Positions 149 through 5,892 of a stretch of 52,312 nt of DNA are shown here, one piece after another. The position numbers were made by a program, and so were the translations under genes. The notes beneath the pieces are model-generated. The model was given only the letters and a program-made list of their open reading frames with translations. It was not told where the DNA came from and did not search any database. The DNA is from Chitinophagaceae bacterium (GTDB lineage: Bacteria; Bacteroidota; Bacteroidia; Chitinophagales; Chitinophagaceae). The stretch covers positions 1-52,312 of the forward strand of contig JAJTFQ010000018.1 of NCBI GenBank assembly GCA_021299955.1, read 5' to 3'. The stretch's first letter is position 1. Every line of letters starts with the position of its first letter.

Positions 149-1597
149 TCAATGGGCTGGTTTACGGCGGAGCAACAGGCCGATGCAGATGAAAAAGATC
201 GATCCGACCTTGTCGGTTTCGATGAGATCGCTGAGCATGTTCAGGATGATGATCATGGATAAAACAGCCAGTATGCCCGCCGCAATGGCGCGATCGAACG
301 GATCATCGGCAGCATGATATTGACGATGGGCGGCACTGAGCAACACATAAAGAAGCAGGCAAAAAACCAGCAGGCCCGGGATACCCTGTTCCACGAGGAT
401 CAACAGGAAATAGTTGTGTACGGTCGATCGCTCCGGATTGTCGCTCACATAGGTCTGAAAGGATCGAACCGTGAATGGCCGGTATGCGTGATAGAATGAA
501 TTCGGGCCGTAGCCATAAAGTGTATTCCCCTCCAGCATCCGTACGGCGGCGATCCATCGGTAGAAACGCTCCATCGATGAGATATCGGTCATCTTGTACG
601 TCGCCTGCATGTGCTGGCCCAGATCACTGTGCCAGATCGTGCGTTCGTAATTCGGACTATACTCAAGATAGCGATCGTCTTGCAGGAAATAGATGGCCGC
701 TCCCACCACCATGGCCACGGCCGCTGCCGCCAGCCAATGGAAGATGCGCTGCCGCAAGGCAAAGACGGCCAACACACCAATCATCGCAGCTACCCAGGCA
801 CCGCGGGAGTAAGTGAAAAACAGTGCGAAGCCGATGAACCAGCGCAGCCACCTTCGCTGTGCCGGAAATACAAACCAGGCCCCAACGGGGATCGACATCG
901 TGGTCACCAGCAGGGCTCCGTAATTCACATGATTGCGGTACAAAGGCTCCACACTCCGATTGGCGCTGTCGAAAGCAAAGCCCAGCCAGGCATGCTTGAT
1001 CAGCACGAAACAGAGCGAACAAAACATTGATATCCCCAGGATCTTCAAGGCACGCAGCACATCCCGCCGGTCGCGCAGGCAATACCAGGTGCCCAGCACA
1101 AAGGCCGTCACATACCAAAGCTTTGCCGCCAAAAACTTGAAGGAAAGCAGTACATGCTTTGACAGCAGACTGCTGAACGCAATCCAAATCAGATGGAACA
1201 ACAAGGGCAGCAGGATGACGGCATCCATCCGGCCACCCCGAAAGCGGTCGCGGTACAACAGAAAATGCAGGGCCATCAACACCGTCATGAACCACATGAG
1301 CGGTTCATCGGGAAGGTCCGTGCCCAGGGTAGCCGTCAGATCGATCTCCGCGGAGAAAGGGATCGTCGCCAGCAACAGGAAATAAATACGCCGGATATCC
1401 TGCAGCCCGATCCAGGCAACCAGGGCAACCGGACCGGCAGCGAGGAAGATCATGCTATGGGTCACAACAGCTGCCAGCGTACCAGCCATCATGGCCAGCA
1501 GGATCAGGACATTCGGCGTCAGCAGGACCGATATGTGAGCGGTGCGGTTCAACCCGTCAGGCTTTCTTGAAACCGGGAAGCAGCAACACCATGGCAA
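149..1597 (-). CDS. O-antigen ligase / Wzy-type polysaccharide polymerase
   Basis: Multi-pass membrane protein of up to 482 residues with about a dozen hydrophobic segments. The Wzy_C/O-antigen ligase region lies in the middle and includes a long periplasmic-loop type stretch and the family-like motif Tyr-Ser-Arg-Gly-Ala-Trp near residue 265. Such enzymes join or polymerise lipid-linked oligosaccharides on the periplasmic side of the inner membrane. The first codons overlap the end of the Wzz-like gene by 41 bases and encode an unusual Cys-rich stretch, so translation may begin later, for example at the TTG near 1552 just past the upstream stop. It is the last of three minus-strand surface-polysaccharide genes. 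Polymerase and ligase cannot be told apart from sequence alone. Confidence 0.8.
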   Translation of the reverse strand: MPWCCCFPVSRKPDGLNRTAHISVLLTPNVLILLAMMAGTLAAVVTHSMIFLAAGPVALVAWIGLQDIRRIYFLLLATIPFSAEIDLTATLGTDLPDEPLMWFMTVLMALHFLLYRDRFRGGRMDAVILLPLLFHLIWIAFSSLLSKHVLLSFKFLAAKLWYVTAFVLGTWYCLRDRRDVLRALKILGISMFCSLCFVLIKHAWLGFAFDSANRSVEPLYRNHVNYGALLVTTMSIPVGAWFVFPAQRRWLRWFIGFALFFTYSRGAWVAAMIGVLAVFALRQRIFHWLAAAAVAMVVGAAIYFLQDDRYLEYSPNYERTIWHSDLGQHMQATYKMTDISSMERFYRWIAAVRMLEGNTLYGYGPNSFYHAYRPFTVRSFQTYVSDNPERSTVHNYFLLILVEQGIPGLLVFCLLLYVLLSAAHRQYHAADDPFDRAIAAGILAVLSMIIILNMLSDLIETDKVGSIFFICIGLLLRRKPAH

Positions 1598-3942: not shown

Positions 3943-4410
3943 TCAACCCGTGACGCGCACATTCCGGTTCAGGCTTTCCTCCAGGGAGATGAGGGTTTCG
4001 GTGCGTTCGATCCCGCGGATCTTCTGCAGCTGGTCGTGCAGCACATACCGAAGCTGGTTGATGTCGCGGGCGACGATCTCGATGAACATACTATAATTCC
4101 CGGTCGTGTAATTGATGCGCACGATCTCCGGGACTTTCCTGAGGTCCTCTGCGACCTGGTCGTAGAGTGAACTTTTTTCCAGGTAAATACCTACAAAAGC
4201 TGTGATATCGTAGCCCAGCAGCTTAAGATCGACATTGAGCTTTGTGCCCCGGACAATGCCGATCTCTTGCAGTTTTTTGATACGGACATGGATCGTGCCG
4301 CCGGAAACAAATAACTTCTTGCCCAGATCGGCATAGGATATGCCGGCATCATCCATCATTTCGTGGATGATCTGGAGGTCCAGTTTGTCAAGATTTAATT
4401 TGGCAGCCAT
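3943..4410 (-). CDS. Lrp/AsnC family transcriptional regulator
   Basis: The 155-residue protein has an N-terminal winged helix-turn-helix (about residues 5-60; recognition region Ser-Gly-Gly-Thr-Ile-His-Val-Arg-Ile-Lys-Lys-Leu) and a C-terminal RAM/AsnC ligand-binding domain (about 70-150). Length and order are standard for the family, which binds DNA as dimers or octamers and usually senses amino acids. Its upstream region carries a perfect 18-bp palindrome (4468-4485), a likely autoregulatory site, and the divergent promoter of the tRNA-like RNA. The flippase gene begins 9 bases downstream. The actual ligand and regulon cannot be read from the sequence. Confidence 0.9.
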   Translation of the reverse strand: MAAKLNLDKLDLQIIHEMMDDAGISYADLGKKLFVSGGTIHVRIKKLQEIGIVRGTKLNVDLKLLGYDITAFVGIYLEKSSLYDQVAEDLRKVPEIVRINYTTGNYSMFIEIVARDINQLRYVLHDQLQKIRGIERTETLISLEESLNRNVRVTG

Positions 4411-4485: not shown

Positions 4486-4496
4486 TTTGAATTATT

Positions 4497-4527
4497 TTGC
4501 CTGATTAAGCCGTTTTGCCTAATTTTG
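4497..4527 (+). promoter_or_regulatory. Bacteroidota-type promoter for the tRNA-like RNA
   Basis: A TTG at 4497-4499 (within TTTTG) is followed after 20 bp by TAATTTTG at 4520-4527, an exact match to the Bacteroidota sigma-ABfr -7 element TAnnTTTG. Transcription would start near 4533-4535, about 28 nt before the 5' end of the folded tRNA-like body. That leaves a short leader of the kind removed by RNase P. Confidence 0.65.
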
Positions 4528-4561: not shown

Positions 4562-4755
4562 TGTGGGGTGATGAAATCTTGGCAGACATGCCCTCTTGTC
4601 TCGGGGGTGGGGGATTCCGGATAAACACTGCATAACGCCGATCCGCAGACGTGCGGACCGACTGGGGTTGACCACCAGTAGGTTGAAGGTAGCGCCTTCT
4701 ACAATCTTGTGCAGCGGCTAACGTCCCCGTGGAGGTTCGACTCCTCCCCCTACAG
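4562..4755 (+). ncRNA. tRNA-like RNA: class II (Leu-type) tRNA body with ~109-nt variable-arm insertion
   Basis: The ends form a complete tRNA fold. Acceptor TGTGGGG (4562-4568) pairs with CCCTACA (4748-4754). Then come T8, G9, a D-stem ATG/CAT (4571-4573/4587-4589) with a Leu-like D-loop containing GG, an anticodon-type stem CCCTC/GGGGG (4591-4595/4603-4607) with loop TTGTCTC, and a T-arm GGAGG-TTCGACT-CCTCC (4731-4747). Expected tertiary partners are present (T8-A14, A15-T48, G18G19 with TTC). The variable arm opens with GGGGA/TCCCC (4610-4614/4724-4728) and then holds about 109 nt with at least three hairpins: TCCGCA/TGCGGA (4642-4657), ACTGG/CCAGT (4661-4679) and GAAGG/CCTTC (4685-4699). 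Nominal anticodon GTC with T37 and G73 is abnormal for a leucine tRNA, and no CCA is encoded. It has its own promoter and terminator. It is not tmRNA: it has D and anticodon arms and lacks the expected 5' sequence. Confidence 0.6.
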
Positions 4756-4756
4756 C

Positions 4757-4790
4757 AAAAGCCCATGACGGTTGCGTCATGGGCTTTTTT
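4757..4790 (+). terminator. Strong rho-independent terminator after the tRNA-like RNA
   Basis: GCCCATGACG (4761-4770) pairs perfectly with CGTCATGGGC (4775-4784) around loop GTTG, followed by six T. A preceding AAAA extends the stem into the T tract. It begins within a few bases of the RNA 3' end and defines a transcript of about 220-250 nt. Confidence 0.9.
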
Positions 4791-4939
4791 ATTGACCGAT
4801 AGGTTAGATGGGCCGAACTGCTGATATATTATGTCAGTCCCTTAGAAAGGATGATGGGGCTGGTTACGTTTGGATTCATAATTACTGAACGAAAGAAAAC
4901 GATCCACCAATTTTAAGAGGTTTCTATTTCAGGTAAGAT

Positions 4940-5009: not shown

Positions 5010-5892
5010 ATGATCATACGAAGCATCATGGAAGAAGCCCGATATTCTCTGACGCAATTCAGAGCGTTATGCATCACAGGGCCGCGCCAAAGTGGTAAAA
5101 CAACAATCAGTAAAACCCTGTTCACAGGAACTGAAAGAAGCTCAACAACCGGTGGATGACCTCATGACAAACATGATCAAGGGAGGATATCCTGAAATAT
5201 GGGCGGAACAATTAAACCCGAAAAAATGGCTGGATAGCTACATTCAAACCTATATCCAAAGAGATGTCAGACAACTCAGGTACATTCAAAACCTGGCGGC
5301 CTTCAACCGTTTTGTCTACCTCTGCGCCAACCTCGCCGGGCAAATACTTAACCGGGATGAGTTATCCAGACAAGTAGGAGTGGATACCAAAACCATTCAA
5401 TCCTGGCTGGGACTCCTGGAAAACAGTTACATCCTTTTTCAGCTGCAACCGTGGTATAACAATCTAAATAAGAGGGTTGTCAAAAGTCCTAAGATATATT
5501 TCCATGACACCGGACTCCTTTGCGCGCTGTTGAGGAGTTCTTCAAAGACAGCATTAAAAAATCATCCGATGGCAGGTGCCATTTTCGAAAACTGGTGCAT
5601 TGCTGAGATCAAGAAGAACAGGTGCAACCTGGGTGACAACAACGGTCTTTACTATTTCAGAGAAAACATGGGAAACGAAGTCGATCTCATCCTTGAAAAA
5701 GATACAGGACCCCTGGCCATTGAGATCAAATCTGCAGCCAAACCCGACCGAAGCTTGTTGAGGGGACTCCAGTACTGGAAGAAATATCAACCCACATTCC
5801 AGAGTATTCTCCTGTATCAGGGAGTGAGCACGTCAACAGAAAACCCGGACATTAACTTCGTATGCTGGCAAGAGATCGATTCGATCCTATGA
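5010..5892 (+). pseudogene. Degraded AAA ATPase with DUF4143 domain
   Basis: From ATG 5010 one frame encodes a typical N-terminus with a Walker A motif (Gly-Pro-Arg-Gln-Ser-Gly-Lys-Thr-Thr at about residues 25-33) and stops at 5157-5159. A second frame, open from at least 5092, continues with the C-terminal half: the conserved Gly-Gly-Tyr-Pro-Glu segment, DUF4143, and an endonuclease-like tail (Asn-Glu-Val-Asp-Leu-Ile-Leu, then Ala-Ile-Glu-Ile-Lys). Walker A is followed almost directly by sequence that in intact relatives lies well over 100 residues further on, and Walker B is absent. I therefore infer an internal deletion plus frameshift. Intact members are about 380-400 residues and of uncertain cellular role, often mobile among genomes. 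The stretch is AT-richer than its surroundings, consistent with acquisition. Residual expression of the C-terminal part cannot be excluded. Confidence 0.75.

Follow-up and report, generated by a model that had tools for sequence, protein, structure and literature searches.

The window analysed here is a stretch of 52,312 nucleotides from a Chitinophagaceae bacterium (GenBank assembly GCA_021299955.1, contig JAJTFQ010000018.1). On its forward strand it carries a tRNA-like RNA with a promoter and a terminator, and a gene for an Lrp/AsnC-family regulator lies divergently upstream (Table 1). At positions 5092-5892 of the same strand we observed an open frame with a DUF4143 domain (PF13635), which looks like the C-terminal fragment of an ATPase gene, with the N-terminal part directly upstream in a different frame.

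Table 1. Features of the tRNA-like RNA locus (positions in the window)
Feature	Position	Strand	Basis
Divergent Lrp/AsnC-family regulator gene	3943-4410	-	PF01037 and HTH_AsnC-type over cut-off
TTTG, possible -33 promoter element	4496-4499	+	sequence; 20 nt spacing to the -7 element
TAATTTTG, -7 promoter element (TAnnTTTG)	4520-4527	+	sequence; fits the presumed consensus
tRNA-like RNA, first acceptor base to discriminator G73	4562-4755	+	covariance model R1, 187.5 bits, exactly these ends
Acceptor stem, 5' strand (U1 G2 U3 G4 G5 G6 G7), 7 bp	4562-4568	+	partner strand 4748-4754
D-arm, Leu-like (ATG ... GGCAGA CAT)	4571-4589	+	stem 100% paired in alignment A1
Anticodon-type arm; stem of 5 bp, 4591-4595/4603-4607	4591-4607	+	sequence
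Anticodon-type loop TTGTCTC	4596-4602	+	GTC at 4598-4600, C38 at 4602
Variable arm, 120 nt; basal stem 4609-4612/4725-4728	4609-4728	+	basal stem 100% paired, two-sided changes in 2/4 pairs (A1)
GATAAAC, recurrent internal loop of the variable arm, 5' side	4620-4626	+	alignment A1
Inner variable-arm helix, 5' strand; partner 4708-4714	4628-4634	+	two-sided changes in 6/7 pairs (A1)
GGTTGACC, loop of the second insert hairpin	4666-4673	+	motif GGGTnGACCAC
GCTAAC, internal loop, 3' side	4717-4722	+	CTAA invariant in A1
T-arm, loop TTCGACT	4731-4747	+	100% paired (A1)
Discriminator G73 and encoded C74	4755-4756	+	G73 in 115/115 host members; C next in 231/231 host copies
Intrinsic terminator, strong hairpin and T-run	about 4760-4791	+	sequence

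The original prediction had described a class II tRNA chassis at this position. The cloverleaf is complete, with the acceptor stem, D-, anticodon and T-arms of an elongator tRNA, U8 and G9 after the acceptor stem and, by our reading of the sequence, a D-stem of three pairs (4571-4573/4587-4589), and the fold is kept in homologues by covariation. The large structured variable arm was confirmed as well, although its predicted size of about 109 nt was slightly low; the measured 120 nt exceed the size found in ordinary elongator tRNAs. The loop and the discriminator had been called wrong for a tRNA-Leu, and in fact the RNA has G73 and a GUC-type loop in place of A73 and a Leu anticodon. The body is nevertheless Leu-like, its D-arm being nearly equal to that of tRNA-Leu(tag) from the same genome. 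This genome holds a single copy of the RNA. Total member length ranges from 107 to 210 nt in hosts and from 92 to 172 nt in phages, where the forms of 92-95 nt have ordinary class II variable arms. The motif GGGTnGACCAC (n = T, C or A) is present in 103 of 252 distinct host members and 43 of 49 distinct phage members and is absent from the short-armed ones.

A promoter and a terminator of its own had also been claimed for the RNA, and the sequence supports both. TAATTTTG fits TAnnTTTG, which we take to be the Bacteroidota -7 consensus, as we take TTTG to be that of the -33 element. Of 228 host copies, 113 have TAnnTTTG at most 90 nt upstream, whereas 100 letter shuffles gave 12 on average and never more than 22. 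The RNA is followed by a strong hairpin with a T-run, and 144 of 231 host copies have a T-run of at least five no more than 60 nt away. An Lrp/AsnC-type gene was found upstream in divergent orientation at 111 of 174 host loci; 52 were without it and 11 offered too little sequence (20 of the 174 loci had supplied the model for this search).

Known RNA families did not account for the element. No Rfam family reached its gathering threshold in the window or in seven relatives, so we rejected a known ribozyme, riboswitch or tRNA-Sec; below threshold, the region gave terminator look-alikes and one tRNA-Sec match of 15.8 bits against a gathering value of 47. ARAGORN reported no tRNA in the window and called none of the copies in the host loci (sets of 18, 39 and 20). 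In the openly accessible journal literature that was searched, we found no description of this tRNA-like RNA.

Folded alone, the sequence stands out little from its shuffles (z -1.57; 11 of 200 did equally well), which is insufficient by itself; it is the covariation among homologues that convinces. A blastn search of 60 genomes, most of them congeneric, gave matches at E<=1 in 43. At E<1e-5 a hand count yielded 33 genomes including the source genome itself, and five of the 33 belong to other families of the order. Alignment A1 comprises 28 distinct sequences (left out were L016 and L022 as identical and L030 as truncated at a contig end, and from alignment A2 one false 18-bit match, L074 8381) and supports a cloverleaf with a branched variable arm. 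In A1, 98.8% of the cells are paired and 16 of 40 pairs display two-sided changes. None of 500 shuffles was as high on any of five measures, and sliding the partners left 46-57% paired. A second alignment, A3, drawn from other orders and another class, was 97.0% paired with 24 pairs showing two-sided changes, figures that lean towards the model to which this alignment was fitted; 0 of 500 shuffles matched it on four of five measures and 41 of 500 on pair types. The RNA at 4562-4755 thus belongs to a real, conserved RNA family, and the absence of a homologous fold in relatives, named beforehand as grounds for dismissal, was not what we found.

The proposed alternative pairing of AGACA in the D-arm with TGTCT in the loop is present and even represents the energy minimum of the window sequence. 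However, 113 of 300 members keep the loop with a D-arm lacking AGACA, so this pairing does not explain why the loop is conserved. An eighth acceptor pair, C-1:G73, was likewise rejected because just 109 of 231 host copies have C at -1.

The RNA occurs in Chitinophagales, Cytophagales, Sphingobacteriales and phages. Searches with R1, which was built from A1 and therefore favours A1-like relatives, matched 174 of 248 genomes of the order at E<=0.01, the weak matches being ordinary tRNA-Leu-like sequences; 144 lay at E<1e-20 when counted by hand from the table. Among 392 genomes of the phylum, 238 matched at E<=0.001 and 42 (hand count) at E<1e-20, and the phylum-wide scores listed jump from 83 down to 55.8 bits. 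A degenerate pattern retrieved at least 120 stretches from named genomes, with the whole element in 115 of 120. Among the matches listed, 80 titles were all from Bacteroidota; the titles included Chitinophaga, Pedobacter, Dyadobacter, Spirosoma, Cyclobacterium, Algoriphagus, Saprospiraceae and one Ignavibacteriales. As far as host genomes are concerned, the RNA is likely restricted to Bacteroidota. Tandem arrays reach up to five copies (L075, L091); in L075 (7001-7898, forward strand), five copies alternate between 177-nt and 119-nt forms, with the loops TTGTCTC and TGGTCTC.

The same degenerate pattern found 58 stretches on viral contigs, of which 57 score 64-124 bits with R1; the remaining one (L305), cut by a contig end, reached 45 bits and was left out. 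Other tRNAs or a tmRNA were present on 48 of the 57, the nearest being on the same strand in all 48, and within 15 nt there was a tRNA in 27 of 57 (21 distinct sequences). Eight stretches carry at least 20 other tRNAs and 12 of 57 a tmRNA. From these close tRNA neighbours and the encoded C74 of the host copies, we infer that the RNA is processed like a tRNA. ARAGORN recognised five short phage copies (92-98 nt) as tRNA-Asp(gtc). Among named phages and plasmids, DNA searches returned a single unannotated phage record (636 kb, 75% identity) and otherwise short matches or none. A conserved partner protein beside the phage copies was ruled out as the neighbours are generic phage clusters.

Some phage copies have peculiarities of their own. 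Many of their variable arms carry a self-complementary palindrome of 6-12 nt and varying sequence directly after GACCAC, as in L272, L293, L264 and L269. Palindromes of at least 10 nt are enriched (10 of 22 phage representatives; shuffles: mean 1.5, maximum 5), and they might serve the pairing of two RNA copies. As a general feature of the arm they were discarded, since 50 of 183 host members have one of at least 8 nt, compared with a mean of 41 and a maximum of 57 in shuffles. In L296, L299, L318 and L286 we noticed an extra hairpin inside the D-loop. Phage locus L310 contains, at 5575-5661 on the forward strand, a tRNA with anticodon UCA that ARAGORN calls tRNA-SeC and that possibly reads UGA.

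We then asked which tRNA signals the family preserves. Host loops were counted in 115 distinct members found by BLAST or the covariance model; loci found by the pattern were excluded because it demands GTCTC, and the phage counts, which leave out the cut copy L277, stay biased towards GTCTC for the same reason. All 115 host members have U1-A72, G2-C71, G73, U35, C36 and C38, and A at position 20a. G34 is found in 112 (the other three have C, C and U); outside the order, UUC or CUC replaces GUC in 3 of 30 members. In bacteria, the aspartate determinants are G73, G34, U35, C36 and C38 together with G1-C72 and G2-C71, while amidation of Asp to Asn depends on U1-A72 and is opposed by G1-C72 and U20a, according to the accessible part of PMC9976931. 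The RNA thus has the tRNA-Asp set except for G1-C72, and it shows what a GatCAB substrate should show, namely U1-A72 and no U20a. The ordinary tRNA-Asp of the same genome has G1-C72 and U20a.

The features needed for decoding are kept less strictly. Among the 115 host members, U33 is found in 99 (A in 7, C in 5, G in 4), and position 37 is U in 110 and a purine in 2. By comparison, U33 and purine-37 were found in 23 of 23 tRNAs from the same genome and in 458 and 459, respectively, of 462 tRNAs from phage arrays. All 48 distinct phage copies keep U33, and 46 of 48 keep U1-A72. The RNA thus lacks the combination of U33 and purine-37 that marks an elongator tRNA. It keeps the signals for AspRS and GatCAB and drops the requirements of the ribosome as well as the features that block GatCAB.

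The conserved AspRS determinants together with U1-A72 predicted that the RNA should co-occur with GatCAB, and this prediction was recorded before the gene searches. We compared 80 hand-picked genomes: 39 RNA-positive ones (37 Bacteroidia), 34 RNA-negative Bacteroidia and 7 RNA-negative genomes of other classes. As the marker of GatCAB, gatB (TIGR00133) was present in 39 of 39, 4 of 34 and 7 of 7, respectively. Within Bacteroidia the contrast is 37 of 37 versus 4 of 34 (Fisher p 4.8e-16, relatedness ignored), among Bacteroidia with GlnRS 32 of 32 versus 1 of 31 (p 3.6e-17, relatedness ignored), and in Chitinophagaceae alone 10 of 10 versus 1 of 10. Three of the four gatB-positive exceptions (G085, G320 and G350) have no GlnRS, which gives GatCAB another use there; the remaining one, G168, has gatB and GlnRS and no RNA by R1. 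GlnRS (TIGR00440) was over the cut-off in 64 of 80 genomes. It was missing from the RNA-positive G089, G141, G043, G438, G633, G544 and G552 and, on the RNA-negative side, from those three Bacteroidia and six genomes of other classes. AsnRS (TIGR00457) was over the cut-off in 77 of 80, the exceptions being G000 (76% complete), G292 and G353; among the Bacteroidia with GlnRS compared above, the incomplete G000 was the sole exception.

E. coli-type AsnB (searched with the G336 protein, E<=1e-150) showed the opposite distribution: it was found in none of the 39 RNA-positive genomes, in 18 of 34 RNA-negative Bacteroidia and in none of the 7 others (0 of 37 versus 18 of 34 within Bacteroidia; Fisher p 7.1e-8, relatedness ignored). 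AsnA (TIGR00669) was present in the RNA-positive G093, G113 and G438 (3 of 39) and the RNA-negative G285, G613 and G350, and at 3 of 34 against 3 of 37 it was rejected as a substitute in RNA-negative genomes. Neither AsnA nor E. coli-type AsnB was found in 15 of 34 RNA-negative Bacteroidia, so these two enzymes do not account for every genome without the RNA. In 68 of 80 genomes, including most RNA-positive ones, proteins passed the TIGR01536 cut-off; other synthetase-like proteins are thus common on both sides. Five RNA-positive genomes (G127, G139, G197, G461 and G520; 99-100% complete) have AsnRS and neither AsnA nor TIGR01536. Three RNA-negative genomes (G070, G237 and G263) likewise have neither AsnA nor TIGR01536.

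A looser R1 search of 40 RNA-negative genomes added one candidate, in G350 (L352, about 1500-1576, reverse strand). It measures 76 nt, with the loop CTATCTC and a short variable region, and still has U1-A72, G2-C71 and G73. Its genome has AsnA and no GlnRS; the relatives G438 (AsnA-positive) and G633 carry the loop CTCTCTC. This copy, the only one we met that resembles a relic, seems to have decayed where asparagine can be made by another route.

We also inspected 20 AspRS-like proteins (12 from RNA-positive and 8 from RNA-negative genomes), one of which was checked against solved structures. A His at one position is presumably the signature of the non-discriminating Pseudomonas AspRS. The sampled proteins have F, K or L at this position (read by eye in L358), and 19 of 20 have K at a second one. 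Given that assumed signature, this suggests that the sampled enzymes do not charge tRNA-Asn. The accessible part of PMC4206432 does not mention the signature of non-discriminating AspRS.

Taken together, the RNA is probably a tRNA-like cofactor that serves asparagine synthesis alone and does not decode. With somewhat less assurance, we favour the broader reading that it replaces asparagine synthetase in much of Bacteroidota and is hijacked or supplied by large phages. The RNA would be transcribed from its own promoter or within phage tRNA arrays and, judging by its ends, trimmed like a tRNA. Following the identity rules, AspRS would load aspartate onto it because it keeps the aspartate determinants, and GatCAB would recognise U1-A72 and amidate Asp to Asn on the RNA. 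The product would not be used for codon reading, as the loop has no purine-37 and often no U33, and the big arm may keep the RNA off the ribosome. Free asparagine would then be released, and AsnRS would charge the ordinary tRNA-Asn with it. Large phages would carry a copy beside their own tRNAs, presumably for a continued supply of asparagine.

We know of no enzyme that releases Asn from such an RNA. By a rough estimate, the ester would probably hydrolyse too slowly without a catalyst to sustain growth; the cofactor reading therefore predicts a releasing factor, perhaps one held by the variable arm. Several observations count against this reading: the bacterial aspartate determinant G1-C72 is absent from the RNA, the UUC and CUC members outside the order depart from GUC, G168 has gatB and GlnRS but no RNA by R1, three RNA-positive genomes have AsnA, most RNA-positive ones contain TIGR01536 proteins, and 15 RNA-negative Bacteroidia have neither AsnA nor E. 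coli-type AsnB.

It is possible, if unlikely, that charging and amidation proceed in the same way and a transferase hands Asp or Asn to an acceptor outside the ribosome, be it a lipid, a peptide or a protein. The loss of decoding features beside intact charging and amidation determinants would fit this equally, and the ester would be unloaded without a hydrolase. However, the anticorrelation with E. coli-type AsnB points to asparagine supply, and no transferase gene recurs among the neighbours of host or phage copies.

A sensor that signals amino-acid supply by being charged with Asp or Asn, possibly via the divergent Lrp/AsnC-type regulator, appears improbable. The frequent presence of that gene upstream speaks for it, but the gene is missing, chiefly in Saprospiraceae and some Cyclobacteriaceae, from the 52 loci with room for it, no frequent protein cluster beside the phage copies is of Lrp/AsnC type, and a sensor does not predict co-occurrence with GatCAB. 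For the regulatory tRNA mimic of the original prediction, this divergent gene was the only positive evidence. The guess of an unusual charged tRNA was the best of its three: the aspartate identity set, the tRNA-like ends and the phage arrays agree with it, while the charging itself is predicted from sequence.

We see just as little chance that the RNA decodes, as an extra tRNA-Asp or by inserting Asn at certain Asp codons. The nearly constant GUC anticodon, the phage tRNA arrays and the U33 of every distinct phage copy would suit such a role. Yet host copies rarely have purine-37 and do not always have U33, both near-universal in the control tRNAs; moreover, U1-A72 combined with GUC would place Asn at Asp codons, and the genome already contains an ordinary tRNA-Asp. 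A decayed tRNA with an inserted element, the third guess, is excluded for the family, for all that ARAGORN and Rfam do not recognise the RNA and L352 looks like a real relic, by covariation in every tested helix type, compensatory changes across families and phages, and determinants that are invariant there as no pseudogene free of selective constraint would keep them.

If the cofactor reading is true, we have here a tRNA whose purpose is metabolism and not codon reading. The size of its structured variable arm would be unprecedented, and it would have escaped notice because tRNA finders pass over it. The cofactor reading would explain why phages that bring their own tRNAs bring this RNA too. 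The reading would also answer, for much of Bacteroidota, why bacteria with AsnRS and GlnRS keep GatCAB beside a single AspRS, a puzzle raised in PMC4206432 as far as its accessible text goes.

Among known RNAs, tRNA-Leu(UAG) of the same genome shares the class II form and nearly the same D-arm; the RNA differs from it in G73 instead of A73, in its anticodon loop, in U1-A72 and in its giant arm. tmRNA is found on the same kind of phages, but the RNA has full D- and anticodon arms, no tag reading frame and no match to the Rfam tmRNA families. The Bacillus cereus tRNA-Other is also tRNA-shaped and apparently outside translation; compared by description only, and within the part of PMC3399842 available, neither aspartate/GatCAB determinants nor a giant arm are reported for it. 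tRNA-Sec and allo-tRNAs resemble the RNA in their class II chassis, long variable arm and G73, and in the Sec pathway the amino acid is changed while on the tRNA (PMC7609411, as available in part). Unlike them, the RNA has a 7+5 bp acceptor branch, a GUC-type loop, a far longer arm (120 nt) and no stop-codon decoding.

The closest parallel is the tRNA-dependent synthesis of asparagine on tRNA-Asn by a non-discriminating AspRS and GatCAB, as in Deinococcus, Thermus and Bdellovibrio. According to the accessible part of PMC4206432, 18 of 547 genera, Bacteroidetes included, have AsnRS, GlnRS and GatCAB without Asn synthetase, and tRNA-Asn is proposed as the scaffold in them. Here, too, GatCAB stands beside AsnRS and GlnRS, the scaffold has U1-A72, and part of the genomes appear to be without asparagine synthetase. 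In contrast to that pathway, the sampled AspRS proteins do not carry what we presume to be the non-discriminating signature, and the scaffold we propose is a separate, non-decoding RNA with anticodon GUC that a discriminating AspRS could charge.
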